Positions 1-13,317 of a stretch of DNA of 64,000 nucleotides are shown piece after piece (position 1 is the stretch's first letter; each line of letters begins with the position of its first letter). This stretch comes from Nitrosomonas halophila (lineage in GTDB: Bacteria; Pseudomonadota; Gammaproteobacteria; Burkholderiales; Nitrosomonadaceae). The stretch lies in NCBI RefSeq assembly GCF_900107165.1, contig NZ_FNOY01000006.1:1-64000 (forward strand), written 5' to 3'. A model generated the notes under the pieces. The model did no database searches and was not told the origin of the DNA. It saw only the letters and a program-made list of their open reading frames with translations. The translations under genes and the position numbers were made by a program.

Positions 1-383
1 TCGGGGATATTTTATGGCAGCAGGATGTGAAGCGAGCACACCAGGCAAATGCGCGCGATTCGAAGTATCGACGAACGGCCTGACTCGCTCTCCAAACACT
101 AGAATAATAGCCTGATTGCAAGCAATCAGCGGTGACTGCTGGGCAAAATTCGGGGTTTCCAGGCAACATTTCCCAAAATCGGCAACGGATGTGTTATCGA
201 ATGCATCATTTTGCTGCATTGTAGTCAACGTGATTAAAAATTAGGCAGGCCAATGGTGGAAAATGGGGTTCTCGGGCAGACACTAAATACTCTCGTTATT
301 TCAATGGCAAAATAGGATTTTTAGACTCGTGCTATTTAAGGTATAATTATGTTTATCTAGGTACGATATTTTAGTTTTATCAA
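1..383. other. gene-free left edge, upstream of the nucleotide-enzyme operon
   Basis: No convincing gene is seen. The first ~240 bases have host-like base composition, while composition becomes AT-rich from about 230 onward, so the edge of the acquired segment probably lies here. A short hairpin (ctgattgc/gcaatcag, about 112-129) is present. A reading frame on the minus strand runs off the left edge from about 130, but it is short and matches nothing I recognise. Confidence 0.5.
320..347 (+). promoter_or_regulatory. candidate sigma-70 promoter of the four-gene nucleotide operon
   Basis: The -35-like hexamer TTTAGA (320-325) is followed by 16 bp and a perfect TATAAT (342-347). The predicted start near 354 would give a leader of about 30 nt before the ATG at 384. 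It is the only such promoter seen upstream of the four overlapping genes, so it probably drives all of them. Confidence 0.5.
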
Positions 384-2480
384 ATGCTTCATGTAACCCT
401 TCAGCGATTACTGCAAGGCGTAGGTCCTAGTCGTGAAGCAATTTATTGGAAACACGGAATCTTTACATGGGATGATTTGGAGAAATTTTTAACTTCTCAA
501 AAAGAATTATTCCCTAATGAGCCTAAACAATACCAAGAACATCTCTCCTGCATATCAAAAGCAAAATCCGCTTTTGAAGCCAAGGATGCTGCATATTTTG
601 CAAGCCTCCTAGATCGCCGCGATTATTACCGTATCCCCCTTTCATTCCAAGAAAAGACTATTTTTCTTGATATCGAAACAACGGGATTGAGTCGATATTA
701 TGACGTTGTCACTCTGGTTGGATGGTATTACCAAGATAAATATAATGCTTTTATTAGGGGGGGTGACGAGTCACCATTGATATCAGCGTTATCTGATGCG
801 CGAGTAGTTATAACTTTTAATGGATCTCTATTTGATCTTCCTTTTCTACGCGAAGCTTTTGTTAATATTCCAATTCCACCTGTACATATTGATCTTCGAT
901 TTTTAGCTAAAAGAGCACAGCTTTCGGGTGGGCAAAAAGTAATTGAAGAGAAGCTCGGTTTCAAGCGACCAGATAATTTAATTGATATAAAGGGAGAAAG
1001 CGCCCCAATTCTTTGGCATCAATATCGTAGAGGCAATTTAGATGCTCTTAAACTTCTAATAGAATACAATTACTACGACATTCTCGGCATGAAGTTTATT
1101 TTTGATGAGGCTGTCAAAATAATAAATAAAGACCGGGCAATACCTTTACATATTTATAAAAATCTTCCGCAGTTCTTTAATAAAAAAGAGCTGACCTCAA
1201 TCAAAATGGGCCGGTTAAATTATTTTCTCAATGAGAAGAATTTACCTTCGTTCAAAGGAGCTACTGGTCCTGCGATTACACTCAAACACCTTCATATTAC
1301 TCAGCCAAGCCTGCTAAAAATAGTGGGAATTGATTTAAGTGGCTCAGAAGAAAGGCCATCTGGATGGTGTTTACTGACCGGCACAGAAGCTATTACACGA
1401 ACTATCGGGAGCGATAAAGAACTTATATCAGCAACCTTAGAAACCAGACCGCATCTAGTTTCAATTGATTCACCCCTATCCCTACCACGGGGCAGAATTT
1501 CCGTTTTTGATGATGATCCCGGTAGACACAAATTCGGTATCATGAGGGACTGCGAGCGCCTGCTAAAAAAGCGAGGAATCAATGTTTATCCCGCGCTAAT
1601 TCCCAGTATGCAAAAACTTACCGCCAGAGGAATTAGATTGGCAGCATATTTCCGGAGTCAAGGTATTCCTGTGATCGAAAGCTATCCAGGTGCGGCACAG
1701 GATATTATGGGAATTCCCAGAAAGCGTGCAAGCTTGAGCATGTTATGTGAAGGACTTGGTGAATTTGGAGTTAGAGGACCCTTTTTACGCGAGCAACTTA
1801 CACATGATGAAATAGATGCGATCACATCTTCAGTTGTCGGTGTTTTTTTCTGGAGCGGTAAGTTTGAAGCATTGGGATCAGAAGTTGAAGAAGCATTGAT
1901 TATCCCGGACTTACAAGCAGACACCACTAACTGGAGCAACAGAAAAATAATTGGGATCAGTGGGCATATTGCAGCCGGCAAGACAACGCTTGCTCGCTAC
2001 TTCGAAACTCAAGGCTATCATTATACGCGCTATAGCATGGTTTTAACTACGATGATGGGAAGTCTGGGCAAAGAAGTGACTCGTCCTAAACTTCAAGAAT
2101 TTGGTAACCAGGTGAACCAAGGTCTTGGCCAGCGTGGGCTTTGCCGAAAGCTTCTAAAAACGCTACCTGAGAAAGGAAATATAGTAATTGATGGCCTGAG
2201 ATTTCCTGATGATCATGCTTTCTGGGTAGAAGTATTTGGCCCTGCTTTTTCGCATATTCACATTGATGCTTCAATGGAACTTCGTAGACTGAGATTCGAA
2301 AATAGAGAATCGAGTCCGATGTCATTTGAAGAAGCAGAGGCTCATCCAGTAGAAAAACAAGTCGCTTCTTTGCATGCACTTGCACATCACGTACTTACCA
2401 ATGAAAAGAGCTTCCAGAATCTATATTCAGATACAGATCATTTAATTTCACATTCTTTATTGAGGTCTCAATGCCAGTAA
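384..2480 (+). CDS. three-domain fusion: RNase H-like exonuclease (YprB-like), DUF429-type nuclease, P-loop dNMP-kinase-like domain
   Basis: A 698-residue protein with three parts. Residues ~85-240 form a DEDD-type RNase H-fold exonuclease of the YprB kind: D96 and E98 in DIETTGL, D151 in FNGSLFDLPFL and D232 in YNYYD are the expected metal ligands. Residues ~310-510 resemble DUF429, a second predicted RNase H-fold nuclease, with GIDLSGS (D317) and SIDSPLSLP (D362). Residues ~524-698 hold a P-loop (GHIAAGKT, K533) in a fold resembling dephospho-CoA and deoxynucleoside monophosphate kinases. The stop overlaps the next gene by 10 nt. The codons are AT-rich, unlike those of the genes after 5153. 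Fusion of two nucleases to a nucleotide kinase is unusual. The substrate is unknown; a role in degrading or sensing modified or foreign nucleic acid is inference. Confidence 0.7.
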   Translation: MLHVTLQRLLQGVGPSREAIYWKHGIFTWDDLEKFLTSQKELFPNEPKQYQEHLSCISKAKSAFEAKDAAYFASLLDRRDYYRIPLSFQEKTIFLDIETTGLSRYYDVVTLVGWYYQDKYNAFIRGGDESPLISALSDARVVITFNGSLFDLPFLREAFVNIPIPPVHIDLRFLAKRAQLSGGQKVIEEKLGFKRPDNLIDIKGESAPILWHQYRRGNLDALKLLIEYNYYDILGMKFIFDEAVKIINKDRAIPLHIYKNLPQFFNKKELTSIKMGRLNYFLNEKNLPSFKGATGPAITLKHLHITQPSLLKIVGIDLSGSEERPSGWCLLTGTEAITRTIGSDKELISATLETRPHLVSIDSPLSLPRGRISVFDDDPGRHKFGIMRDCERLLKKRGINVYPALIPSMQKLTARGIRLAAYFRSQGIPVIESYPGAAQDIMGIPRKRASLSMLCEGLGEFGVRGPFLREQLTHDEIDAITSSVVGVFFWSGKFEALGSEVEEALIIPDLQADTTNWSNRKIIGISGHIAAGKTTLARYFETQGYHYTRYSMVLTTMMGSLGKEVTRPKLQEFGNQVNQGLGQRGLCRKLLKTLPEKGNIVIDGLRFPDDHAFWVEVFGPAFSHIHIDASMELRRLRFENRESSPMSFEEAEAHPVEKQVASLHALAHHVLTNEKSFQNLYSDTDHLISHSLLRSQCQ

Positions 2481-3502
2481 CCGTTATTGTTGGTGGGCAG
2501 TTCGGTTCTGAGGGAAAAGGCAAGGTCGCGCATTTTTTAGCTAAAGAAATGCATGCATCTGTTGTGATAAGAGTTGGCGGCCCCAATTCTGGCCATACTG
2601 TCATTTCAGAAGAAGGGCCATTGATCTTTAGGCAACTTCCTACAGCGGCTATTTTGCCTGATGTCAAATGCGTACTTCCAGCAGGAAGTTATATTTTCCC
2701 ATCCCGCTTACTAGAAGAAATACATACCGCCAACCTCTCTCCCGCACGGCTTCTCATCGATCCTAACGCCATCATTATTACTCCGGAAACCCTCCAAGAT
2801 GAAAATCAATCCATGCTTGGATCCACTATAGGCTCTACACAAAGTGGTACGGGAGCAGCGGTTCTGGCAAGAATCAGTAGACTTGGACGTGCAAAGCTAG
2901 CACAGAATGAAGAGAGCCTGAAACCTTATATTCGTCCGGCAACTTCTTTTCTTCGTGAAAAGTTAGATAAAAAAGAACGAGTAATCATTGAGGGTACACA
3001 AGGCTTCGGGCTGTCTGTATTGCATGCGCGTGATTATCCATTTACGACAAGTCGAGATACTACTGCAGCAGGCTTTGTTGCAGAAGCAGGGTTAAGCCCA
3101 TTAGACGTTGATGATATTGTTTTAGTGATTAGAGCTTTTCCGATTCGAGTAGCTGGAAACTCAGGCCCATTACCGAGAGAATTCACATGGCAGGAGTTAG
3201 CTGATGAGTCTGGCTCCAATGCACCGATAATCGAATATACCTCGGTAACAAAAACCGTTCGTCGTGTTGCACGATTTGATCCTGAAATTGTGCGCGATGC
3301 GATCATGTATAACAAGCCAACACGAATCGTCCTGAACCATCTTGATTATATAGATACTGCTCATTCAGATTCTATTGGCATCTCATCGAAATGCTCGGCT
3401 TTCTTACGCTATGTAGAAAGTGAGATTGGCTGCCGTATTACTTATACCGGGCTGGGACCAAACCATCTAATACCTCTTGAAAATCTTTTAAAGTTGGCAT
3501 GA
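2471..3502 (+). CDS. PurZ-like short adenylosuccinate synthetase homologue with Ser replacing the catalytic Asp
   Basis: A 343-residue member of the adenylosuccinate synthetase family, shorter than the ~430 residues of bacterial PurA and close in size to archaeal PurA and phage PurZ. The P-loop reads GQFGSEGKGK: Ser13 stands where E. coli PurA has its catalytic Asp13. The general-acid His is kept (GGPNSGHT, His42), as are an EGTQG motif and the Arg-rich aspartate-binding region (KTVRRVARFD). The nucleotide-specificity motif reads NHLD, not TKLD, so GTP may not be the cofactor. Loss of this Asp with gain of Ser is, as I recall, a mark of phage PurZ, which joins aspartate to dGMP on the way to 2-aminoadenine. 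GAGG lies 6 nt before the ATG, and the gene overlaps both neighbours. Family membership is firm; the PurZ-type reaction is inference. Confidence 0.8.
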   Translation: MPVTVIVGGQFGSEGKGKVAHFLAKEMHASVVIRVGGPNSGHTVISEEGPLIFRQLPTAAILPDVKCVLPAGSYIFPSRLLEEIHTANLSPARLLIDPNAIIITPETLQDENQSMLGSTIGSTQSGTGAAVLARISRLGRAKLAQNEESLKPYIRPATSFLREKLDKKERVIIEGTQGFGLSVLHARDYPFTTSRDTTAAGFVAEAGLSPLDVDDIVLVIRAFPIRVAGNSGPLPREFTWQELADESGSNAPIIEYTSVTKTVRRVARFDPEIVRDAIMYNKPTRIVLNHLDYIDTAHSDSIGISSKCSAFLRYVESEIGCRITYTGLGPNHLIPLENLLKLA

Positions 3503-4503
3503 GCAGAGAATATTCGGCAGGCTACGAAATTGCTAAGAATGAGCAGGAAGCAGCTTGCCGTTTTGAGGAATTTTCATCTAAGGATCCATTACCCGAAGTT
3601 CCTCCTGCTCTTTTGAATTCTGGAGATATTCATGATTATGCTCGTATTACGAGCATGGTATACCCATTTGAAGAAAAAAAACTTAAATCAGCATCTTATG
3701 AGGTAGATTTTTTAGGGAAAGTTCATTATGTAAATGAGGAAAGTGAAGTAGAAGTTACTGAACTTGAAAAGCATAAGCCATTTACATTAAAAAAGAACTC
3801 CATTGCGTTTCTTTATATTCAAACAAAATTCTTTCTGCCAGATTATATTGCTATTCGCTTTAATTTAAAAATTACCCACGTACATAGAGGGTTATTATTA
3901 GGTACAGGACCATTAGTAGATCCTGGGTTCGTTGGTCGGTTACTAATTCCGCTGCATAATTTAACATCCAAAGATTATGCTATTAAGGGGGGAGATGGCC
4001 TGATCTGGGTTGAATTTACAAAACTATCACCACATAGAAATTGGAATACATCTGCTCGTGAAGATAGTGCCGCTTATAAATCCTTTCCTAGTAAAAAAAG
4101 AAATCTTCCTGTACAAGTGTATTTTAATAAAGCATCACCTCAAGATGGAAGACCGGCAAGTAGTTCAATACCTGGGGAAATAGCAGCTACTAAAAAACAT
4201 GCAAAAGATGCTGAGCAACATGCAAAAGATGCTGCAAATCGAACCAAATGGATTTCTATTGCAACCATACTTGGGCTTATTACTTTGGTTTTTATGACGT
4301 GGGATTTAATTTCGGCTACCAATCAACATATTGCAACTGCACGTGACTTAGTAGAAAATTTGAGTGCGGAAAAAAATAATATAAATAACAAGATTGAATC
4401 TTTGGAGATCCAGATTAGATCTCTTACTGAATCGTTGGAGAAAAAAAACAAGGGTTTTCCAAAAAACGCACAAGAAAATTACCCAAATGATTCATCGCAT
4501 TGA
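3499..4503 (+). CDS. membrane-anchored dCTP deaminase/dUTPase-fold protein, probably non-catalytic
   Basis: A 334-residue protein joined to the previous gene by an ATGA overlap. Residues ~60-205 resemble the dCTP deaminase/dUTPase trimer fold (LLLGTGPLVDPGFVGRLLIP resembles the HRIDPGWSG region of Dcd). The Ser-Arg pair of the SSLAR motif and the catalytic Glu expected just after it are not seen (HVHRG and PLHN stand there), so deamination is doubtful. A helical AKDAEQHAKDAA stretch (~230-245) leads to one transmembrane helix (~251-270) and a coiled coil (~285-322). It could be a nucleotide sensor or a membrane-bound scaffold. Catalytic dCTP deaminases are a known antiphage class, which makes this context notable. 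The function is not established. Confidence 0.6.
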   Translation: MSREYSAGYEIAKNEQEAACRFEEFSSKDPLPEVPPALLNSGDIHDYARITSMVYPFEEKKLKSASYEVDFLGKVHYVNEESEVEVTELEKHKPFTLKKNSIAFLYIQTKFFLPDYIAIRFNLKITHVHRGLLLGTGPLVDPGFVGRLLIPLHNLTSKDYAIKGGDGLIWVEFTKLSPHRNWNTSAREDSAAYKSFPSKKRNLPVQVYFNKASPQDGRPASSSIPGEIAATKKHAKDAEQHAKDAANRTKWISIATILGLITLVFMTWDLISATNQHIATARDLVENLSAEKNNINNKIESLEIQIRSLTESLEKKNKGFPKNAQENYPNDSSH

Positions 4504-5089
4504 GCTATGCGGTGGCATAGCTTCTGGAAAAACAACCCTTGCCAATCTACTGACAAGATTAAGAATTAAGCCCGTCCTAGAAAACTTCCAATCCAATCCT
4601 TTCTGGCAAGCATTTTATGCTGATCCAATTGGCACCGCTTTTGAAACCGAGATAACCTTCTTACTTCAGCATTATCACCAAATAAAAACTGCACAGAAAC
4701 TCGAAAACAAGACAGCTTGTGACTTTTCTCTGCTGCTCGATCAGGCATATGCGCGTGTCACACTTTCTCAAGATAAGCTACAAGCTTTCCTCGCCGTTTA
4801 TCAAGAGGTAAATAAAGAATTGCCCCCTGCATCGTTACTTATATACCTCAGATGCAATCCTGAGATTGAGCTCGATAGAATTAGGCATAGAGGAAGGAGG
4901 GTTGAAAATTCAATTACTATTGAATACTTGCAGCAAATAAATATGCAACTAGAGCGGCTTATAGCTGACTATTCTGATGCATTGTTTGTAGTGGATAGCG
5001 GCCAGCTTGACTTTGCCAATAATGAGAATGTAAAAAAATACTTACTTGAACAAATTGAAATGAAGGTTTCCTCGACACTTCAATTTTAG
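4487..5089 (+). CDS. deoxynucleoside kinase-like protein (dAK/dGK family)
   Basis: I chose the ATG at 4487 (200 residues) over an upstream start at 4394, because family similarity begins with MIHRIELCGG and this start overlaps the previous stop by only 17 nt. The Walker A motif is GGIASGKTT (Lys15). CDFSLLLDQAYARVTL resembles the substrate-site segment of bacterial deoxyadenosine/deoxyguanosine kinases, and an Arg-rich lid (RIRHRGRR) follows LIYLRCNPE. Such enzymes phosphorylate deoxynucleosides to dNMPs. Here it is the last gene of the AT-rich operon and could feed dNMPs to the PurZ-like enzyme; that link is inference. Confidence 0.7.
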   Translation: MIHRIELCGGIASGKTTLANLLTRLRIKPVLENFQSNPFWQAFYADPIGTAFETEITFLLQHYHQIKTAQKLENKTACDFSLLLDQAYARVTLSQDKLQAFLAVYQEVNKELPPASLLIYLRCNPEIELDRIRHRGRRVENSITIEYLQQINMQLERLIADYSDALFVVDSGQLDFANNENVKKYLLEQIEMKVSSTLQF

Positions 5090-5152
5090 GCAAAGACAAA
5101 GGGTATATACATTCCGCCATCCCGTCCAACCGGATTCTAGGATGATTTGTCT

Positions 5153-6682
5153 ATGCTAATGCTCGACTGGGGCATTCTACTGATCGGCCTGCCATTGAGC
5201 GGCGCATTGCTCACTTTCATATTCCATGCCCAGTCCCGCTGGCTCGGAATAGGAACTGCACTCACCATCAATGGCTCACTGGCTGCCTTGCTGATGCAAT
5301 TCTTTGCCTCAACCGGCACCCAGCGCTACCCAATCGGTAGCTGGGGCGCCCCCCTGGGCATCGAGCTTTATCTGGATGGCCTGAGTATCACCATGCTCAG
5401 CATGTGCTCGCTGGTAGGGCTGGCAGTCAGCTGCTATGCGCCCGCCTACTTCCATATGCAATCGGCCGACAACCGGGCATCCACTGCAACGGACTCCGTC
5501 CCATTCAACAAACGATCCGGTTCAGGGCCTGTCAGGCAGATAAACAAGGGTGAATACTTCTGGCCATTATGGCTGCTGCTCTGGACAGGCCTGAATGCAC
5601 TCTTCCTGTCAGCGGATATCTTCAATCTATATGTCACGCTGGAATTGATAGGCCTCTCCGCGGTCGCCCTGACTGCTCTGGCTGGCAGCCAGGAAGCACT
5701 CACCAGCGCCATGCGTTATCTGCTCATCAGCCTGCTCGGATCTTTATGCTATTTGCTCGGTGTCGCGCTGCTCTATCATGCCTTTGCCACCGTCGACCTC
5801 ACCCTGCTTGCCGAACGCATGACGGCCGTGCCAGCCACCTGGGCATCACTGGGGCTGATGGCAACAGGGTTGGCACTCAAGACGGCATTGTTTCCTCTGC
5901 ATTTCTGGCTGCCCGCCGCGCATGGCAGTGCCGCCGCACCCGTCAGTGCATTGTTATCCGCCCTGGTAGTCAAAGCCTCTTTTTATCTCTTGCTGCGGCT
6001 ATGGCTGACGCTATTCGAAGCATTCAATCCGGGCGTTCCGGATTTGCTGGGCCTGATGGGTGCAGCCGCAGTCATATGGGGCTCACTCCAGGCACTGCGC
6101 CAGGCCCGCCTGAAATTGCTGGTTGCCTATTCGACCGTCGCGCAGCTGGGCTATTTGTTTATTGCCTTCCCGCTTGCCGCAGGCCATGCTGGCGCTTGGT
6201 ATGGTGCGCTCTATCTAGCCTTGTCGCACGCGCTGGCCAAGGGTGCCATGTTTCTGGCAGCAGGCAATATTCAGTTATTCGCTGGACATGATCAAATCAC
6301 CGCACTCGAACGGGTTGCGCAGCAACTGCCGGTCAGTCTGATGGCCTTTGCGCTGGCGGGTGTCAGCATCATAGGGCTGCCACCCAGCGGTGGCTTCATC
6401 GGGAAATGGTTGTTGCTGGAGGCCGCCATCTCCCAAGGCCACTGGGGATGGGCGATCATCATCCTGGCGGGCGGCCTGCTGGCGGCGGGTTATATATTCA
6501 AGGTCATCGGTTACGCTTTCAACCAGGCAACCACACCCCATGCCGTGCAGCCAGTCCCCGCCGTAATGCAATGGAGCGCCCTGCTCCTCGCGATCGGCTC
6601 ATTGCTGCTTGGATTGTTCGCTGCGCAGCCACTCGCTTTGTTGGCGGTTGGCAGTCCCTTTCACTCCATCAGCCTGCCATGA
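5153..6682 (+). CDS. proton-translocating membrane subunit, NuoN/MrpD-like (first of three)
   Basis: A ~509-residue polytopic protein of the complex I/Mrp antiporter-like family (NuoL/M/N, MrpA/D). It keeps the family's charged residues: the mid-membrane Glu (YVTLELIGLSA), Lys in LALKTALFPLHFWLP and Lys in SALVVKASFY. A hydrophilic insert (~residues 105-135) interrupts the N-terminal helices. ATG at 5153 was chosen; AGGA at 5139-5142 also allows a TTG start at 5147. The next gene overlaps by 4 nt. No NADH- or hydrogen-oxidising subunits are adjacent, so the coupling partner is unknown. Confidence 0.8.
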   Translation: MLMLDWGILLIGLPLSGALLTFIFHAQSRWLGIGTALTINGSLAALLMQFFASTGTQRYPIGSWGAPLGIELYLDGLSITMLSMCSLVGLAVSCYAPAYFHMQSADNRASTATDSVPFNKRSGSGPVRQINKGEYFWPLWLLLWTGLNALFLSADIFNLYVTLELIGLSAVALTALAGSQEALTSAMRYLLISLLGSLCYLLGVALLYHAFATVDLTLLAERMTAVPATWASLGLMATGLALKTALFPLHFWLPAAHGSAAAPVSALLSALVVKASFYLLLRLWLTLFEAFNPGVPDLLGLMGAAAVIWGSLQALRQARLKLLVAYSTVAQLGYLFIAFPLAAGHAGAWYGALYLALSHALAKGAMFLAAGNIQLFAGHDQITALERVAQQLPVSLMAFALAGVSIIGLPPSGGFIGKWLLLEAAISQGHWGWAIIILAGGLLAAGYIFKVIGYAFNQATTPHAVQPVPAVMQWSALLLAIGSLLLGLFAAQPLALLAVGSPFHSISLP

Positions 6683-8181
6683 GCATGCAAAGCTGGCTAC
6701 CATTGCTGATTCTGGCGGGCCCGCTGACGTTGGGTTTGATTATATTCATGTTGCCCGAGAACAGTGTGCGCACCCGGACAACACTCAATCTGCTGGCGGC
6801 ATTGATCAAGCTGGGCATGGTTGGATGGATGATTTGGCATGTCTACCGCGGACAACACTTTGAATCCAGAATTGTGCTCATGTCCGATTTCGACCTTGCC
6901 ATGCAAGTAGGGCCGCTTTCGGTATTGTTCCTGGGTTTGTCGTCGGTATTGTGGCTGGCAACCACCATCTACGCTGTCGGTTATCTGGAAGGATCGCCCC
7001 ACCGCAGCCGCTTCTTTGGGTTCTTCAGCCTGTGCGTGGCCGCGACCGCAGGTGTGGCAATGGCCAGCAATCTATTCACTTTTCTCCTTTTTTATGAACT
7101 GCTGACACTGGCCACCTACCCACTCATCGTGCATCGCGGGACTGACATCGCGCGGCGTGCCGGGCAAACTTACCTGGTTTACACCATCGGCGGCGGTACG
7201 TTACTGCTGGCGGGAACCGTCTGGTTATATACCCTCACCGGCACACTCGAGTTTGCGCCACAAGGCGGATTCGTGCGGACTCTCGGGCAAGCCCATCATG
7301 CCGACCTGACTGCCATTTTCATGCTATTGATCGTGGGCTTGGGCGTCAAGGCTGCATTGGTGCCCCTACATAGCTGGCTGCCGCAGGCCATGGTCGCCCC
7401 GGCGCCTGTCAGCGCGCTGTTGCATGCGGTCGCAGTCGTCAAGGCGGGTGTATTTGGGATTGTACGCGTTCTGTATGATGTGTTTGACATTGAGTTCGCC
7501 GCACAGGAGCTAGGGGTCACCACCCCGCTCGCGATCATCGCCGCAGTGACCATTCTCTATGGCTCGCTGCGCGCCCTGTTCCAGGATGACCTGAAACGCC
7601 GCCTGGCCTTCTCAACCGTCAGCCAGGTATCCTACATTACGCTGGGTATCGCGCTGGCAGGCCCCTTGGCGGCAATCGGCGGCCTGGTCCACCTCGTCCA
7701 TCAGGGATTGATGAAAATCACGCTATTTTTCTGCGCGGGCAATCTGGCCGAAACGCTTGGCATCCATAAAATCAGCGAGATGAAGGGCGTAGGTCAGCGC
7801 ATGCCATTCACCATGGCGGCATTTACCCTGGCCGCACTGGGCATGATCGGCATGCCACCGATTGCCGGATTCATCAGCAAATGGTATCTCGGTCTGGGGG
7901 CCCTGCAAATGGAACAGAACTGGGTCATCTGGATACTAATCGCCAGCACCCTGCTGAATGCTGCCTATTTTTTACCGATAATCTATGCGGTATGGTTCTG
8001 CGATCCACCAGCCAGCTGGCCGGTCATGCGCAAACCCACCCATCAGGAAACTACCTGGGCATTGCTGCTCCCTCCAGTCGCGACAGCACTGTTGTCACTG
8101 ACGGCCGGCATGCTGGCGGCGCTTTCGTTCAGTCCCCTGGAATGGGCGTTATTCATCATTCACAGTCAATTCTGGCGCTGA
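6679..8181 (+). CDS. proton-translocating membrane subunit, NuoM/MrpD-like (second of three)
   Basis: A 500-residue polytopic protein of the same family. The start at 6679 overlaps the preceding stop (ATGA). The essential Glu is present (LLFYELLTLATYPLI), as are Lys in GLGVKAALVPLHSWLPQA and Lys in VAVVKAGVFG. The KAAL-PLHSWLP-A-APAPVSALLH core is typical of NuoL/NuoM. It probably forms a membrane H+ (or Na+) channel module with its two neighbours. The start of the next gene overlaps its stop by one base. Confidence 0.82.
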   Translation: MSMQSWLPLLILAGPLTLGLIIFMLPENSVRTRTTLNLLAALIKLGMVGWMIWHVYRGQHFESRIVLMSDFDLAMQVGPLSVLFLGLSSVLWLATTIYAVGYLEGSPHRSRFFGFFSLCVAATAGVAMASNLFTFLLFYELLTLATYPLIVHRGTDIARRAGQTYLVYTIGGGTLLLAGTVWLYTLTGTLEFAPQGGFVRTLGQAHHADLTAIFMLLIVGLGVKAALVPLHSWLPQAMVAPAPVSALLHAVAVVKAGVFGIVRVLYDVFDIEFAAQELGVTTPLAIIAAVTILYGSLRALFQDDLKRRLAFSTVSQVSYITLGIALAGPLAAIGGLVHLVHQGLMKITLFFCAGNLAETLGIHKISEMKGVGQRMPFTMAAFTLAALGMIGMPPIAGFISKWYLGLGALQMEQNWVIWILIASTLLNAAYFLPIIYAVWFCDPPASWPVMRKPTHQETTWALLLPPVATALLSLTAGMLAALSFSPLEWALFIIHSQFWR

Positions 8182-9932
8182 TGAACATCCTGTTGCCGAC
8201 ACTCCTGATTGCTGCTGTTGCCTGGCCATTGTTGCTGGGCCTGATTTTGTCCTTGCCACGCCGGCCCGGTATTGTCTTGCGGCTTGCGCCCTGGGGTGCG
8301 CTCCCCGCACTGCTTGCAGTCATTTTTCCATCACCCGATCCGCTGATTGAAGTCCCCTGGCTTCTACTCGGCAGCCTGTGGGGGCTAGATCCGGTCAGCC
8401 GGCCATTCCTGCTGCTGGCGGGACTATTGTGGGGAATCTCTGGCTGGCATGCCAGCACAAGTATATCCGCATCACGGCAGGCACACTTTTTCTCTTGGTT
8501 CAATCTGGCACTGGCCGGCAATATCGGCCTGATCCTGGCACAGGACATGCTGAATTTTTATCTCTTTTTCACGCTAATGAGTCTGGCCTCCTATGGCCTA
8601 ATCATTCATACGCGCACGGCCGAGGCCTGGCGCGCAGGCACCCGCTACATCATCTTGGTCATGCTCGGAGAGGCTGCCATCTTTGCCGCGTTGCTCTTGG
8701 CTGCAGCGGCGGCTGGAACGCTTTCGTTCGAGCATGCCCGCCCGGTGCTCGGGCATTCTGTCTGGCTGGATATGATATTGCTGACGGCCTGGCTGGGTTT
8801 CGGCATCAAGGCCGGTGTGCTTGGATTGCATGTGTGGCTGCCACTCGCACACCCGGTCGCACCTGCCCCGGCCAGCGCTGTACTCTCGGGGGTCATGATC
8901 AAAGCAGGCCTGCTTGGCTGGTTGCGGCTGCTGCCGCTGGGCGAAACCATGCTGCCAGCATGGGGCGCATTCTGGATCATCCTGGGGCTGACTGCCGCAT
9001 TTTACGCAGTCGTGATTGGACTCACCCAACGCGACGCCAAAACCTTGCTGGCCTACTCCAGCATCAGCCAAATGGGCATTCTGACCGCGACCATCGGACT
9101 CGGTTTGCTGACACCGCACGCCTGGCCCGCCATACTCTCGGCGCTGCTGATTTATGTGCTGCATCACGGCCTGGCCAAGGGCGCATTGTTTCTGGGGGCC
9201 GGCATACTTCATCAAAGCGATACCCGCTCACAAAAATGGGTCTGGATGGGACTCTGGCTGCCTGCCCTGGCCCTGGCCGGTGCGCCCTTTACCAGCGGCA
9301 TGCTGGCCAAAACGCTGCTCAAGCAGCAAACGTTGCAATTGCCCGAGTATTGGGCGATGCCATGGCAAGTGCTGCTACCCGCCAGCGCCATCGCCACCAC
9401 CCTGCTGCTGGGGCGATTTCTGCTCATGACCGCACCCCACAATCCTGCCAGACCGCCCGGCAATCCCGCTCCAATCGGGTGGCAGTGGCCATGGTGCATC
9501 CTGCTTGCCAGTATCGCCGCCTTCCCGCTGGGCATGGGACGGATCTCACCCTTTCACTGGACGGGGCGCGCATTGCTGGACAGCCTATTACCGGTGTTGG
9601 CAGCCGCTCTGAGTGTGCTCTATATCAGCCGTTCCCAATCACGCCTGCAGCAGACCGCCAAGGTATTGAACACGCTCCACCTGCCACCTGGCGACATGCT
9701 GACAGTCTATGAACAGGCAGTCATGTACATACTGGCCGGCTGCCGGCGACTGGGCCGCGATGACTTGCCCCGCTGGCTGGATGCCAGCAGGCAAAAATTT
9801 CTAGCACTGCGCACAAGCCTGGACTGGCAAAAGATCGGCACAAAACTAGAAACTTGGCTTGCCTGGTGGCCACTGGCCCTGACAGGATTTATACTGCTCG
9901 GCTTGATCCTGGCCAATGCCAGCTTGCGCTAA
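8181..9932 (+). CDS. proton-translocating membrane subunit, NuoL/M-like (third of three), lacking the conserved Glu
   Basis: A 583-residue polytopic protein starting at ATG 8181, one base into the previous stop codon. Core motifs are kept (GIKAGVLGLHVWLPLAHPVAPAPASAVL, shortened here to its key GIKAG and HVWLPLAHP parts; Lys in GVMIKAG). Where the family has YELL, it reads FFTLMSLASYG, so the mid-membrane Glu is replaced. A cytoplasmic/membrane C-terminal extension (from ~residue 480) ends in one more helix. It may be a structural or altered-coupling subunit. The gene is followed at once by a perfect 23-bp inverted repeat. Confidence 0.75.
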   Translation: MNILLPTLLIAAVAWPLLLGLILSLPRRPGIVLRLAPWGALPALLAVIFPSPDPLIEVPWLLLGSLWGLDPVSRPFLLLAGLLWGISGWHASTSISASRQAHFFSWFNLALAGNIGLILAQDMLNFYLFFTLMSLASYGLIIHTRTAEAWRAGTRYIILVMLGEAAIFAALLLAAAAAGTLSFEHARPVLGHSVWLDMILLTAWLGFGIKAGVLGLHVWLPLAHPVAPAPASAVLSGVMIKAGLLGWLRLLPLGETMLPAWGAFWIILGLTAAFYAVVIGLTQRDAKTLLAYSSISQMGILTATIGLGLLTPHAWPAILSALLIYVLHHGLAKGALFLGAGILHQSDTRSQKWVWMGLWLPALALAGAPFTSGMLAKTLLKQQTLQLPEYWAMPWQVLLPASAIATTLLLGRFLLMTAPHNPARPPGNPAPIGWQWPWCILLASIAAFPLGMGRISPFHWTGRALLDSLLPVLAAALSVLYISRSQSRLQQTAKVLNTLHLPPGDMLTVYEQAVMYILAGCRRLGRDDLPRWLDASRQKFLALRTSLDWQKIGTKLETWLAWWPLALTGFILLGLILANASLR

Positions 9933-9989
9933 GAGCTCGTTAATGAATAACTTGGGATGATACGCTCAAGTTATTCATTAACGAGCTCT
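9932..9989. repeat. perfect 23-bp inverted repeat with 12-nt loop
   Basis: Arms at 9932-9954 and 9967-9989 are perfectly complementary; the loop is 9955-9966. It lies directly after the stop of the third membrane subunit. There is no T-run on either side, so it is not a classic intrinsic terminator; it could act as an mRNA 3'-end stabiliser, a REP-like element or a protein-binding dyad. Confidence 0.8.
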
Positions 9990-10102
9990 AAAGCAGCTTG
10001 GGCAGACGTCGATATCATTCCAGATTACTTGTCATGGCACAGCACTGTCGTAAATTTCACTTATTCAACGCTCTTAACTACTCTCGAAGGAGAACTACAT
10101 TG

Positions 10103-10561
10103 ATGCAACGCAACATTAAAGGCTTCACCATCATTGAACTGATGATCGTAGTGGCGATCGTCGGCATTCTGGCAGCGGTGGCTGTTCCTGCTTATCAGGA
10201 TTACACCATTCGCGCCCGTATTACTGAAGCAATCAGCATGGCATCGGCTGCCAAGACCACCGTCAGCGAGAATATCGCGGTCAATGGCGGCGAACCCCCT
10301 GCTGACGCCTGCTTGGGAGTTGCCACCATCACAGCCCCGACAACAAATATCAATTCAATGACCTGCGAATCTTCCTCGGGCAATATTACTGTCACAACCA
10401 CCCCTGCAGCTGGGGGGGTCACATTGGTGTTTGCCCCGACCCAACCGGGCTCGGCAGGCAGCGCGATCGTTTGGACCTGCACACAAACCGCTGGCAGCAG
10501 CAATCATGTTCCGCCCAACTGCCGTGTCCCAGCCGAGGCAGGCGGCGCCGAGGAGAGCTGA
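10103..10561 (+). CDS. pilA: type IV major pilin
   Basis: A 152-residue pilin. Start ATG 10103 is preceded by AAGGAG at about 10087-10092. The leader MQRNIKG is followed by [16 protein letters not shown], the PilD cleavage site with the conserved Glu at mature position 5 and the hydrophobic assembly helix. The C-terminal part has Cys residues (DACLG, MTCESS, WTCTQT, PPNCR) able to form the usual D-region disulfide. It stands alone, convergent with the pilus ATPase operon, with a MITE between the two 3' ends. Confidence 0.85.
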
Positions 10562-10576
10562 AACCACGCATCCTTA

Positions 10577-10738
10577 CTAGGAGACTGTCCGAGAATAGCG
10601 ATCGTAGCGAGGGCGAAGCTGTCTGAGCGGGATTTTTCGATCATTTGAGGCGAATAGTGGTTCTATTCAACAAAAAGGATCGAAAAATCCAGCCTGGCAG
10701 GTTCGTCCGCAGTAGATCAGTCTCGGACAGCCTCCTAG
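10577..10738 (+). repeat. MITE copy A (~154-bp core, CTAG flanks)
   Basis: Palindromic element with core 10581-10734. The ends GAGACTGTCCGAGA and TCTCGGACAGCCTC are inverted repeats, and both sides carry CTAG (10577-10580, 10735-10738). It is 5 bp shorter than the other copies near its right end. It lies between the 3' ends of two convergent genes and has no transposase gene. The remaining bases up to 10941 hold nothing recognisable. Confidence 0.85.
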
Positions 10739-10941
10739 GCACTGGCCGGACGATGGCGGACCCGCTTCGACCGGCTGACAGCAAACATCCATCCAACCTG
10801 TCGCTGTCGCTGTCGCCATCGACCTGCCGCTCCAGTGGATGCCCCACTTAAGCCGGATCACCTCAGGCGCGGCGCCATGCCGCGTCTGAGTGCCACTCTC
10901 ATCCCATCCCTTCATTCAAAGGAGGCAGCATGCCGGCTGTA

Positions 10942-13317
10942 TCATCTGATGCACGCGGCACGGACTTGGCGCATATCGGTAATGCCCTGCAAGACTTTTT
11001 CAATTCCGTCCTGTCTGAGCGTACGCATGCCTTCGCGCAGCGCGGTAACGAGCATTTCAGCCACGCGGGCGCGCTCCTGAATTTTTTTCTTCATGGCATC
11101 GGTGGCAGTGAGCAGTTCATGCAAGCCGGCCCGGCCAGCGTAGCCAGTACCGTTGCAATGGTCACAGCCTACCGGTTCATGCAGCATGATACGTGCATGG
11201 GCATCGCCATACTGTTCTGTCCAGCGCGCCAAGATTTGCTGGTAGGCGGTGCTGGGCTCCGCCTTAAACTGATCGATTTGTTTCAGATCCATGCAATATT
11301 CGGTCAGCAGCAGGCGGATTTCTTCCGGACTGGCCACATGCGGCCGCTTGCACCGGCACAAGCGTTTAACCAGGCGCTGCGCCAGAATGCCCAGCAATGC
11401 ATCGGAAAAGTTGAATGGATCCATTCCCATATCCAGCAACCGAATGATGGATTCCGGCGCACTGTTGGTATGCAGAGTAGCAAACACCAGATGGCCGGTA
11501 AGCGATGCTTCGATGCCCATGCTGGTGGTTTCCCGGTCGCGCATTTCTCCCACCATGATGATATCCGGATCGGCCCGCAGAAAGGATTTCATCACCGTCG
11601 CGAAGGTCAAGCCGGCCTTGGGATTGATTTGCACCTGGCGCAAGCCTGATTGCGTGATTTCGACCGGATCCTCCGCTGTCCAAATCTTGGTGGCCGGTGT
11701 GTTCAGGTGCTTGAGGATGGAATGCAGGGTGGTGGTCTTGCCGGACCCGGTCGGACCACAAACGAAGAACAATCCGTAGGGTTTAGCGATCAGCGACTTG
11801 AGCACCTGCAGATTCGGCCCGGCAAACCCCATTCTCTCCAGCGGAATCGGCTCGCCCGCAGTCAGTATCCGCATGACCACATCTTCCACGCCGCCAGCCG
11901 AAGGAATGGTCGCCACCCGCAACTCGATATCAAGGATAGAAAATTTGCGAAAATTGATTTTGCCATCCTGCGGCTTGCGCTTTTCTGAAATATCCAGATC
12001 GCACATAATCTTGATGCGCGTGATCAGCGGGTTACGATAACGCGCCGGCAACTCGATATAAGGCATCAAGGAACCGTCTTTACGGAAGCGGATGCGGGTA
12101 TTGCCTTTACCGGGCAATGGTTCGACATGAATATCGGAAACCCCCATCTTGTAGGCATCCATAATGATACGATTGACCAGTTTGACCAGCTCGTTATCCG
12201 CCGCTGCCAGGGCCTCATCGAGCTCATTGGTAGGCTCTTCCGTTTCCTCGACGAAACGCGACAGCATGCTATCAATGCTGTCCCCGCCCTCTTTCAGTCC
12301 ATCCTCTCCATAAAACAAATCCAGGGTTGCCCGGAATTCACGCTGGGTACAGACTGTATAGATAATCTTGTGTTTGGGAAAAACCTGGTTGACGATACGC
12401 AATGCCTTGATGCGCTCGGGATCCAGTGTCAGTACCGTCAAGCCATCCATGCCGTCGTCTATCGGCAGCCAGCTGTTGCTCTCAACAAACTCACGCTTGA
12501 GATGCTTCAACAAAGCCAGCGGCCTGGCACGATCCGCCTGGTAAGGCTCGTATCTGACACCAAAGAAGGCGGCCAGCGCGGCACCGATCTGGGCGGGTTC
12601 GATCTGGAACATATCGAGTAAAATGTCTTCCAGGTTGTCCCCTGTGGCACGTGCTTTCCGTTTGGCCAATTCGAATTCCGAAGCGCCAATCGCCCCGGTG
12701 GCGATCAAATGATCGTAACGGGTACGCGTGAACAGCCGTGGCCGCCGTTGCCGTTGAAAAGCGTTCGCCAACGCCTGGCATATCCCGCTCACACTGTCTG
12801 CCATATCGTGCGCAAAAGGTTGATTCTCCTGATGATTGACAATTTGCACCATACCCAGCAGCTCATGGTGGCTGCGATTTAAAATGGGGACAACCAGCAC
12901 CTGCCGGCAACGCAGGCCGAGGGACGCCTCAATTGGCTGCAACCAATGCGGCTGCACACCTTTAGCCTTGAGCGCAGCATGATCGGTTGCATCTTCGAGA
13001 TTGATCATTCTTTTGTGCAGGCTGGCGTAGCCGATCAGACTATGTCCATTGATCGGCAACTGAAGCGCCGGGTTGGCTGTCTCCAGGCCACTGGTCACCC
13101 GCGAAAGCATGCCAGTCCCGTCCTCGCTGACCGCATAAATCATCAACTGCTCAGCTTGACACAATCGGCAAAGGTCTTGGCCGATCCCGCCCAGGATAAC
13201 ATCGATATTTCCAGTTGCTTCGATCTTCCCTATTATCGCCTGAAACTGCTGCACCAGGCCCGGCCAGTCGTGCTGAACCGGGCAACCCGCTACGCCCGGT
13301 TGTCCATTGATAGGCAT
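10942..13317 (-). CDS. GAF-domain type IV pilus / type II secretion assembly ATPase (PilB/GspE family)
   Basis: A 791-residue protein. Start ATG at 13317 has GGAGG 9 nt upstream; a longer frame to 13392 has no such site. Residues ~25-190 form a GAF domain (SLIGYASLHKRMINLEDA). Residues ~200-360 are the GspE N-terminal domain, followed by the secretion ATPase core with Walker A GPTGSGKT, Asp-box TAEDPVE, Walker B IIMVGEMRD and His-box GHLVFATLHTN. Cysteines in CRCKR and CDHCNGTGY form the tetra-Cys zinc motif. An N-terminal GAF domain is not usual for PilB and suggests ligand control. It follows the phosphodiesterase gene by 17 nt. Confidence 0.85.
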   Translation of the reverse strand: MPINGQPGVAGCPVQHDWPGLVQQFQAIIGKIEATGNIDVILGGIGQDLCRLCQAEQLMIYAVSEDGTGMLSRVTSGLETANPALQLPINGHSLIGYASLHKRMINLEDATDHAALKAKGVQPHWLQPIEASLGLRCRQVLVVPILNRSHHELLGMVQIVNHQENQPFAHDMADSVSGICQALANAFQRQRRPRLFTRTRYDHLIATGAIGASEFELAKRKARATGDNLEDILLDMFQIEPAQIGAALAAFFGVRYEPYQADRARPLALLKHLKREFVESNSWLPIDDGMDGLTVLTLDPERIKALRIVNQVFPKHKIIYTVCTQREFRATLDLFYGEDGLKEGGDSIDSMLSRFVEETEEPTNELDEALAAADNELVKLVNRIIMDAYKMGVSDIHVEPLPGKGNTRIRFRKDGSLMPYIELPARYRNPLITRIKIMCDLDISEKRKPQDGKINFRKFSILDIELRVATIPSAGGVEDVVMRILTAGEPIPLERMGFAGPNLQVLKSLIAKPYGLFFVCGPTGSGKTTTLHSILKHLNTPATKIWTAEDPVEITQSGLRQVQINPKAGLTFATVMKSFLRADPDIIMVGEMRDRETTSMGIEASLTGHLVFATLHTNSAPESIIRLLDMGMDPFNFSDALLGILAQRLVKRLCRCKRPHVASPEEIRLLLTEYCMDLKQIDQFKAEPSTAYQQILARWTEQYGDAHARIMLHEPVGCDHCNGTGYAGRAGLHELLTATDAMKKKIQERARVAEMLVTALREGMRTLRQDGIEKVLQGITDMRQVRAACIR

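Follow-up and report, generated by a model that had tools for sequence, protein, structure and literature searches.

A recurring bacterial gene set that pairs a PurZ-type synthetase with a membrane-anchored dCTP-deaminase-fold protein, and its possible role in conflict with phages

Introduction

Why would a bacterium that already has a regular purA carry an additional synthetase gene of the PurZ type, a group that was described with 147 phage and four archaeal sequences (PMC12884076)? This question is raised by a four-gene operon of Nitrosomonas halophila, which is located at the very beginning of the stretch of DNA analyzed here, i.e., positions 1 to 64,000 of contig NZ_FNOY01000006.1 (assembly GCF_900107165.1), referred to as the window in the following. 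The operon encodes a fusion of nuclease and kinase domains (gene 1), the PurZ-type synthetase (gene 2), a protein with a dCTP-deaminase (DCD) fold and a predicted transmembrane (TM) segment, called DCD-TM (gene 3), and a deoxynucleoside kinase (dNK; gene 4). The analysis revealed that these genes belong to a recurring, modular and patchily inherited gene set, which extends beyond the operon as it was first described. As to its function, our tentative reading is that of a bacterial conflict system built on PurZ, probably directed against phages, in which a membrane receptor/effector without catalytic activity would sense a 2-aminoadenine (Z) deoxynucleotide made from dGMP.

The PurZ-type synthetase

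Gene 2 (positions 2471-3502, forward strand; 343 amino acids, aa) matches Adenylsucc_synt (E 1.8e-49), the phage PurZ group phrog_1211 (E 1.6e-72) and the adenylosuccinate synthetase model PRK04293 (E 1.6e-78; 264 bits, below the cut-off of 368). PurZ is distinguished from PurA by a serine (or glycine) at the position of the catalytic aspartate of PurA (PMC8342488; PMC12884076) and by an insert after a conserved valine, which deforms the deoxyribose loop (PMC8342488). Both the serine and the loop insert are present in every row of the operons and of the kinase::PurZ fusions described below and in none of the three PurA rows. The position of the catalytic aspartate is occupied by serine in 42 of 42 non-PurA rows, being Ser13 within the motif GGQFGSEGKG in the window, and by aspartate in all three PurA rows, and the loop reads PIRVAGNSG in gene 2 compared to PTRVGAG in PurA. 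In the base-donor loop (NHLDY) gene 2 has an aspartate, as is the case for the three PurA rows and three actinophage rows of the PurZ0 type, and the corresponding position is glutamine or asparagine in the rows of the phage PurZ enzymes of S-2L, VP5 and SH-Ab. For PurZ0 the use of ATP and for PurZ the use of GTP was reported (PMC12884076), and S-2L PurZ uses ATP or dATP (PMC8342488).

A tree of 28 rows separates PurZ from PurA with a support of 100/99 and places the operon rows in one group (91/90). Upon addition of 17 viral rows, taken from the 80 viral loci described below and resulting in a tree of 45 rows, the rows of the operons cluster with those of viral PurZ (17 rows, 98/95) and are interleaved with them. 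At least two changes are forced by the starred branches, so PurZ has passed between viral and bacterial genomes. In this larger tree the kinase::PurZ fusions are tentatively placed with PurA (82/83). Both trees contain only three PurA rows and do not fix where the PurZ group is rooted. As a summary, PurZ chemistry, i.e., the use of dGMP and aspartate as substrates, is well supported by the sequence of gene 2. The possibility that gene 2 is a copy of the housekeeping purA was ruled out by the full canonical purA, which is encoded as a separate gene elsewhere in the genome on contig C96.

As a separate observation, a Rhizobium leguminosarum plasmid (L005:7375-15715; the numbers preceded by L designate the loci compared) carries a PurA-like gene with the aspartate kept next to genes for PurB, FolE, QueC/QueE and an IMP dehydrogenase. 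This cluster looks like 7-deazapurine biosynthesis, unconnected with PurZ.

The membrane protein DCD-TM

Gene 3 (positions 3499-4503, forward strand) encodes a protein of 334 aa with a DCD fold, a single predicted TM segment and a long C-terminal helix, which appears in a structure model of poor quality (pLDDT 47). The DCD-fold domain (positions 3625-4032, forward strand) contains the motifs GTGPLVDPGF and IPLHN. It matches PF22769 (E 1.8e-5; 25.3 bits, slightly below the cut-off of 27) and phrog_1663 (E 1.2e-8), and the profile of the gene-3 family matches dCTP deaminases in the PDB (E 1.7e-7). The DCD/dUTPase fold is thus recognized by sequence profile, though below the cut-offs of Pfam and NCBIfam. 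The host Dcd enzyme has the motif LEF, the glutamate of which we take to be catalytic, whereas the gene-3 family has [IL]-P-[LI]-H-N with proline at the position of this glutamate in all ten rows, Pro151 being the residue of the window protein. An active dCTP deaminase was therefore rejected as an assignment for gene 3. Moreover, the motifs RFNLKI, GTGPL(V/I)DPGF and EFTKLS are near-invariant in the family. As the glutamate is lost and the motifs around the would-be pocket are strongly conserved, the domain is read as a binding domain without catalysis, and its ligand may be a nucleotide.

The predicted TM segment of gene 3 (positions 4258-4314, forward strand; aa 254-272) forms a 19-residue hydropathy peak of 1.91. 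A hydrophobic segment is present at the corresponding place in all ten members covered by the hydropathy scan (L003 and L007 lie outside it), with peaks of 1.56-3.03. By sequence, gene 3 encodes a dead DCD fold with a probable TM segment. The membrane-anchored dCTP-deaminase fold proposed in an initial annotation of the operon, made from the DNA sequence, is borne out by profile match and hydrophobic segment, with the addition that the fold is predicted to be non-catalytic.

Distribution of the gene set in bacteria

Gene 3 was found at 12 distinct loci, i.e., the window, L003, L006, L007, L008, L009, L010, L011, L012, L038, L039 and L040, in Nitrosomonas, other Pseudomonadota, Cyanobacteria, Nocardioides and a metagenome-assembled genome. 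At all 12 loci a PurZ gene lies not more than 4 kb from gene 3; it is adjacent at 10 of them, 0.8 kb off in L040 and 3.7 kb off in L010. Counted within the fetched stretches (approx. 10 kb per side) instead of whole genomes, a relative of gene 1 is present at eight of the 12 loci, i.e., the window, L006, L007, L008 (cut by the contig end), L009, L038, L039 and L040 (with the kinase as a separate gene), and none was found in the stretches of L003, L010, L011 and L012. The dNK is present at four, i.e., the window, L006, L008 (in part) and L039; in L007 the contig ends before any dNK position and gene 3 stops ahead of the TM segment. The conserved core of the gene set is PurZ together with DCD-TM, and gene 1 and the dNK are optional. 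The four-gene neighborhood of the initial annotation accordingly holds up as a set that recurs across phyla, but not as a fixed quartet.

L003 is one of three Sinorhizobium medicae records with the same match and was reached through its PurZ; the S. medicae copies sit on plasmids. The closest operon relatives found are those of Nitrosomonas sp. Nm84 and Nm33, and gene 1 was not found in any of the 36 other genomes of the same genus that were searched, suggesting that the operon is a sporadic possession. In four draws of genomes, which possibly overlap and from which the centre genome was excluded, gene 3 was found at E ≤ 1e-15 in 1 of 387, 1 of 397, 1 of 376 and 0 of 373 genomes, at most five candidates being scored per listed genome. 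A single-protein search at E ≤ 1e-6 resulted in two weak matches to gene 3 (G102 and G376; 25-29% identity) in 368 other genomes. The recurrence of the gene set in other phyla argues for an association beyond chance. Beside gene 3 in L012 and L040, a protein of approx. 240 aa starting with MQ[DN]RY.GD.GD is encoded (L012:11002-11706 and L040:10943-11683; likeness by eye); the L012 protein has no match in Pfam, and relatives are present in two plasmid records.

A sister set with DUF7002, and PurB

Next to the pairing with DCD-TM, PurZ occurs as a C-terminal fusion to a P-loop kinase (kinase::PurZ), followed by a DUF7002 gene, in seven replicons of Rhizobiaceae and Methylobacterium (L004, L019-L024), most of which are rhizobial plasmids. 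An HD phosphohydrolase and a protein of approx. 455 aa, for which no match was found in the PDB at E ≤ 0.1, are encoded nearby in 7 of 7 of these replicons. In a Nocardioides locus (L010) and in a contig of a viral collection (L080) kinase::PurZ and DUF7002 are accompanied by an ImmA-macrodomain protein instead, the macrodomain being assigned by PDB search for L010 and by alignment for L080. For the C-terminal half of the protein encoded at L010:13310-14803 the PHROG name HD phosphatase was discarded, as the PDB search gives a macrodomain (E 1e-17). L010 also carries gene 3 and thereby joins both sets. DUF7002 adjoins kinase::PurZ at 9 of 9 fusion loci, and eight of the ten plasmid records with DUF7002, which include records from Caballeronia and Streptomyces, are also PurZ records. 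A weak DUF7002 match was obtained at L133. An assignment of DUF7002 as a DarT-like ADP-ribosyltransferase was considered because of a motif and the macrodomain partner; a profile search of the PDB resulted in only a chance-level match (Talin 1, E 0.46).

Several genes around PurZ bear on the fate of its product. The L010 locus encodes on the opposite strand a purB scoring 348 bits, above the TIGR00928 cut-off of 326, and the Nocardioides genome has two purB genes above this cut-off, whereas the four other genomes checked have one each. This second purB and the viral PurB relatives described below suggest that the outcome of the pathway is dZMP rather than dSMP. The kinase is tied to PurZ twice, in the gene-1 fusion neighboring PurZ and in the nine kinase::PurZ fusions. 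Furthermore, L003, L011 and the seven fusion loci encode, divergently from or near PurZ, a phosphohydrolase that matches the phage dNMP phosphatase group phrog_318 (E 8e-59 and 4.4e-65), and one of these proteins matches S-2L DatZ locally (42% over 60 aa). In L003 and L011 the HD motif of the phosphohydrolase reads HE, making its activity doubtful there.

The nuclease-nuclease-kinase fusion and the deoxynucleoside kinase

Gene 1 (positions 384-2480, forward strand; 698 aa) is composed of a DEDD exonuclease, a RuvC-like (DUF429-related) domain and a P-loop nucleotide kinase. The DEDD exonuclease domain (positions 660-1109, forward strand; aa 93-242) matches RNase_H_2, PF13482 (E 4.4e-27), and gives a single, weak match in the PDB (E 0.019), to an "ancestor of diDNase". 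The residues D96, E98, N146, D151, D170, Y228 and D232 are identical in 7 of 7 alignment rows, and so are D317, D362, H474, D475 and D478 of the RuvC-like RNase H-fold domain (positions 1296-1928, forward strand; aa 305-515). D96, E98, D151 and D232 of the exonuclease and D317, D362, D475 and D478 of the RuvC-like domain are candidates for metal-site residues. In the window protein, no Pfam family matches the RuvC-like domain by itself. A relative encoded as a free-standing protein on a Dyadobacter plasmid (55.9% identity over 195 aa) matches DUF429 weakly (20.4 bits, cut-off 23). A model of the domain predicted from a five-row alignment (pLDDT 68, pTM 0.69) has RuvC as its best Foldseek match (E 3.6e-5), and its 16 PDB matches with E ≤ 0.001 consist entirely of RuvC and chloroplast resolvases. 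Part of the domain (aa 309-368) weakly matches the PADLOC candidate PDC-S44 (E 7.4e-5). As described below for gene 3, no match of the domain was found among phage records and no relative was confirmed in scans of viral contigs. On the Dyadobacter plasmid (L002:10432-12594) the relative directly follows a diadenylate cyclase with DACNG/DACNH sensor domains; these two proteins are possibly another nucleotide-signal pair.

The P-loop nucleoside-monophosphate-kinase-like domain (positions 1938-2453, forward strand; aa 519-690) matches AAA_18 (E 3.2e-6, below the Pfam cut-off), the dNMP-kinase group phrog_139 (E 4.7e-8) and the PADLOC dCTPase model PDLC02373 (E 1.9e-6), and also the N-terminal part of the kinase::PurZ fusions; searched alone, it has no match in the PDB at E ≤ 0.1. 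Gene 4 (positions 4487-5089, forward strand; 200 aa) encodes a dNK (PF01712, E 8.2e-25), its nearest solved structures being the dNK 8puu and the deoxyguanosine kinases 2jaq and 2jas (E 2e-12 to 7e-12). Its start at 4487 (MIHRIELCGG...) was chosen from the relatives, the list of open reading frames (ORFs) offering a longer alternative with a TTG start at 4394. The domain make-up predicted initially for the four proteins is thereby confirmed.

Locus layout

The four genes overlap by 10, 4 and 17 nt, and the operon has a GC content of 40.4% compared to 53.9% in the remainder of the window, as was described initially; the GC content of the operon lies below that of its surroundings at 9 of 10 loci measured, L012 being the exception. 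A single promoter ahead of the operon, as claimed in the same description, was not confirmed. The promoter-like site at positions 320-347 (TTTAGA-16-TATAAT, 10 of 12 consensus positions) is the top match of the forward strand, yet it is weak and the region contains 12 such sites compared to 12.6 ± 3.4 in shuffled sequences, leaving the claim unsupported. A search of positions 1-12,000 against Rfam at gathering scores gave no match. The genome measures 3.2 Mb and the window forms the start of its contig C126, the left flank of the window thus being the contig end. To the right, genes for Mrp/NADH-dehydrogenase-like antiporters (positions 5147-9932) begin 57 nt past the operon end. In two genomes of the same genus the homologue of this antiporter (58-59% identity) is preceded not by the operon but by small ORFs, which by eye resemble other antiporter subunits. 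The operon may thus have been inserted into the antiporter cluster or next to it. Due to the identity of 58-59% and the position of the window at a contig end, an exact empty insertion site could not be drawn.

Viral relatives and defense neighborhood

Gene 3 has no match in 50,697 phage records and no relative was confirmed in three scans of viral contigs, which used short peptide patterns (in the last scan GTGPL[VI]DP and [LV][IV][WY][VF]EFTK) that can miss distant relatives. Relatives of PurZ were found in 98 viral stretches, the nearest being 61% identical, and 80 of the 98 were kept for neighborhood analysis. Within the fetched flanks of at most 5 kb, none of these 80 loci has a relative of gene 3, and 17 have a PurB relative near PurZ, one of them partial (L106). 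These PurB contigs are L072, L073, L074, L079, L083, L086, L090, L096, L097, L102, L106, L110, L115, L122 and L127-L129; a number of viruses apparently encode a Z-pathway lyase themselves. No phage genes were seen by eye in the inspected operon flanks, which for the window means the flank opposite to the contig end. A prophage remnant, which the initial annotation had named as an outcome that would speak against its proposal, is therefore unlikely considering these flanks and the viral collections searched for gene 3, and gene 3 looks cellular, not viral.

In an uncontrolled count, with some neighbors assigned by domain matches and others by eye, defense-type genes were found next to five of the nine gene-3 loci for which both flanks were available (L003, L009, L010, L011 and L012). 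In L009, which is of the same locus type as the window, L006, L038, L039 and L040, an HsdM gene lies directly upstream. The neighbor in L012 is type IIG restriction-like and the one in L010 is ImmA (CapP model). In L011 a UvrD-type helicase matches the GajB and RTasHel models, and also PcrA/Rep models below cut-off, and in L003 an annotated UvrD gene lies beside ThiF/JAB-like genes (named by eye). Next to PurZ and DCD-TM, L003 and L011 share by eye, though in a differing order, a UvrD-type helicase, a pair of smaller genes and genes resembling ThiF/JAB, perhaps a shuffled island of rhizobial replicons. Among the fusion loci, L020 has SIR2 and DUF87 as well as AbiE as neighbors, and L021 and L024 have UvrD by annotation. 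Directly right of the window operon no defense gene was seen by eye.

Discussion

How might these proteins act together? We infer a pathway in which dGMP would be the infection cue, a Z nucleotide the signal and DCD-TM the receptor and membrane effector, resulting in protection from phages. Free dGMP would rise during infection as DNA is degraded, and the DEDD/RuvC-like nuclease, converting DNA to dNMPs, and the dNK, converting deoxyguanosine to dGMP, may add to it. PurZ would then join dGMP and aspartate to form N6-succino-2-amino-dAMP, the step that is well supported by sequence, and PurB, usually that of the host and encoded within the locus in Nocardioides, would split this product, yielding the 2-aminoadenine deoxynucleotide dZMP. 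The P-loop kinase together with the host nucleoside-diphosphate kinase (NDK) might convert dZMP to dZDP/dZTP, to which the gene fusions lend support. Finally, the DCD-fold domain might bind the Z nucleotide and the membrane segment might act on the membrane, thereby arresting growth or killing the cell. DUF7002 would replace this effector in the sister set. An altered purine deoxynucleotide as the product had been proposed from the outset, and the PurZ signatures, the second purB in one locus and the kinase fused to PurZ in the sister set point in the same direction.

This reading is supported by the PurZ signatures, the separate purA, the constant pairing of PurZ and DCD-TM, the twofold link of the kinase to PurZ, the second purB of Nocardioides, the proline and the hydrophobic segment of DCD-TM, DUF7002 as an exchangeable partner, the defense-type neighbors of some loci, the toxicity of the S-2L Z-cluster described below and the rarity of DCD-TM in genomes, along with its absence from the viral collections as far as the scans reach. 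Several observations weigh against it. Gene 2 scores 236.9 bits (E 2.8e-70) with the NCBI PurZ model NF038379, below its curated cut-off of 300, and is for this reason called PurZ-type, as a lineage outside this model. The interleaving of operon PurZ with viral PurZ leaves room for a phage-linked metabolic role, which the enzyme might have. The TM segment is predicted from hydropathy only; the peak of L011 (1.56) is no better than that of a soluble dUTPase-like control (1.54), and L039 reaches 1.72. The poor DCD-TM model mentioned above lends no support to a nucleotide pocket. In the same uncontrolled count no obvious defense neighbors were seen at four of the nine loci (L006, L038, L039 and L040), and PADLOC resulted in weak matches only for the four window proteins (best E 1.9e-6).

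Alternatively, the Z nucleotide might be a weapon instead of a signal. The operon would then act upon infection as an antimetabolite system that drains dGMP/dGTP and supplies an excess of dZTP; this would enter and spoil the phage DNA, to be cut by the nucleases, with DCD-TM only restraining or localizing the enzymes. The toxicity of Z-cluster genes in E. coli, the DNA of which then contains Z (PMC8342488), would fit, as would the nucleases and kinases encoded alongside PurZ and the phrog_318-type phosphohydrolases. However, the gene-1 nuclease is missing from the fetched stretches at 4 of 12 loci, compared to 12 of 12 for PurZ and, by definition, for the membrane protein; the window operon contains no DNA polymerase gene, and the HE motif renders the phosphohydrolase of L003 and L011 a doubtful participant. 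We regard this explanation as unlikely. The initial annotation had named the nuclease fusion as the effector instead and the membrane protein as sensor or scaffold; in this version a nucleotide, either normal or altered, would be sensed by the DCD protein, which in turn sets off the nuclease. The active-site residues of the nuclease domains, invariant in 7 of 7 rows, and the gene-1 relatives at 8 of 12 loci agree with this, but L003, L011 and L012 have PurZ and DCD-TM without a gene-1 relative nearby (the remaining parts of these genomes were not searched), making this version rather improbable. The four loci without a gene-1 relative suggest that the membrane protein is more likely receptor and effector, and that the nuclease/kinase protein more likely feeds or primes the pathway. 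Of the initial proposal the membrane sensor is thus retained, while the nuclease as effector loses ground.

Even less probable in our view is that genes captured from phages with Z-DNA serve salvage or the metabolism of mobile elements by supplying plasmid or chromosome with dNMPs or dZTP and have no immune role. The interleaved PurZ tree, the GC content below that of the surroundings at 9 of 10 loci and the plasmid location of the S. medicae copies are in line with such a capture. Yet the searches of the viral collections did not yield DCD-TM, no phage structural genes were seen by eye beside the inspected operons and simple salvage would have no use for an inactive deaminase fold anchored in the membrane. 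The reading as a PurZ-based conflict system can also be put more broadly: 2-aminoadenine deoxynucleotides, hitherto known from the DNA of Z-DNA phages, would constitute a bacterial immune second messenger with PurZ as its synthase, completed by the P-loop kinase and PurB, and with exchangeable receptors (DCD-TM or DUF7002), and PurZ would have been traded between phages and hosts. We hold this generalization with more reservation than the conflict system itself. PurZ encoded in bacterial operons of at least three phyla together with DCD-TM or DUF7002 would give Z chemistry a role on the side of the host. It raises the question whether dGMP released by DNA breakdown serves as an infection alarm by way of a base not known from healthy cells. 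DCD-TM and DUF7002 would be new candidate effectors from two exchangeable partner sets.

Comparison with known systems

In the open-licence PMC literature no described system with this gene set was found among the matches listed, and none was matched in the model searches, in agreement with the novelty assumed initially. The phage Z-cluster (DatZ, MazZ or DutZ/DmtZ, DpoZ; PMC8342488; PMC12884076) has in common with it the serine and the loop of PurZ, HD phosphohydrolases encoded close to PurZ at some loci and a purB gene next to PurZ at some viral loci. It differs in that the gene set described here has bacterial hosts and a DCD-TM partner for which the viral collections gave no confirmed match. 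DpoZ, MazZ and DatZ are absent among the four window proteins, a YfbR/DatZ-like HD gene being present in other loci only. Joint expression of datZ, mazZ and purZ, the Z-cluster of S-2L, is toxic to E. coli (PMC8342488). Clover (CloA/CloB) likewise controls anti-phage activity by deoxynucleotide signals, but is composed of a dGTPase and a nucleotidyltransferase, without PurZ (PMC12265719).

The dCTPase defense proteins of PADLOC resemble the operon in that the kinase region of gene 1 matches PDLC02373 (E 1.9e-6) and that both act on deoxynucleotides. The dCTP-deaminase defense proteins use a cytidine-deaminase domain, whereas gene 3 has a fold of the Dcd/dUTPase type without the catalytic glutamate. 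Cap15-type CBASS effectors carry a beta-rich ligand-binding domain on a membrane anchor and respond to a cyclic-dinucleotide ligand made by a cGAS-like synthase. The domain combination of a beta-rich ligand-binding domain and a membrane anchor is similar in DCD-TM, but the window operon has no cGAS-like synthase, and no cGAS-like nucleotidyltransferase domain was found in its four proteins.

Finally, in Kongming dAMP is converted to dITP as the immune signal and NAD depletion is the outcome (PMC12948488, a review). No gene is shared with KomA/KomB/KomC, which were compared by domain content only, and neither an adenosine-deaminase nor a SIR2 domain is among the matches of the four proteins. 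The likeness, the nearest in the literature covered, lies in the logic: a non-canonical deoxynucleotide is made from a dNMP of infection, kinases bring it to the triphosphate and a receptor reads it (PMC12948488), with the difference that here PurZ would lead from dGMP to a 2-aminoadenine nucleotide and a membrane protein is the candidate receptor.

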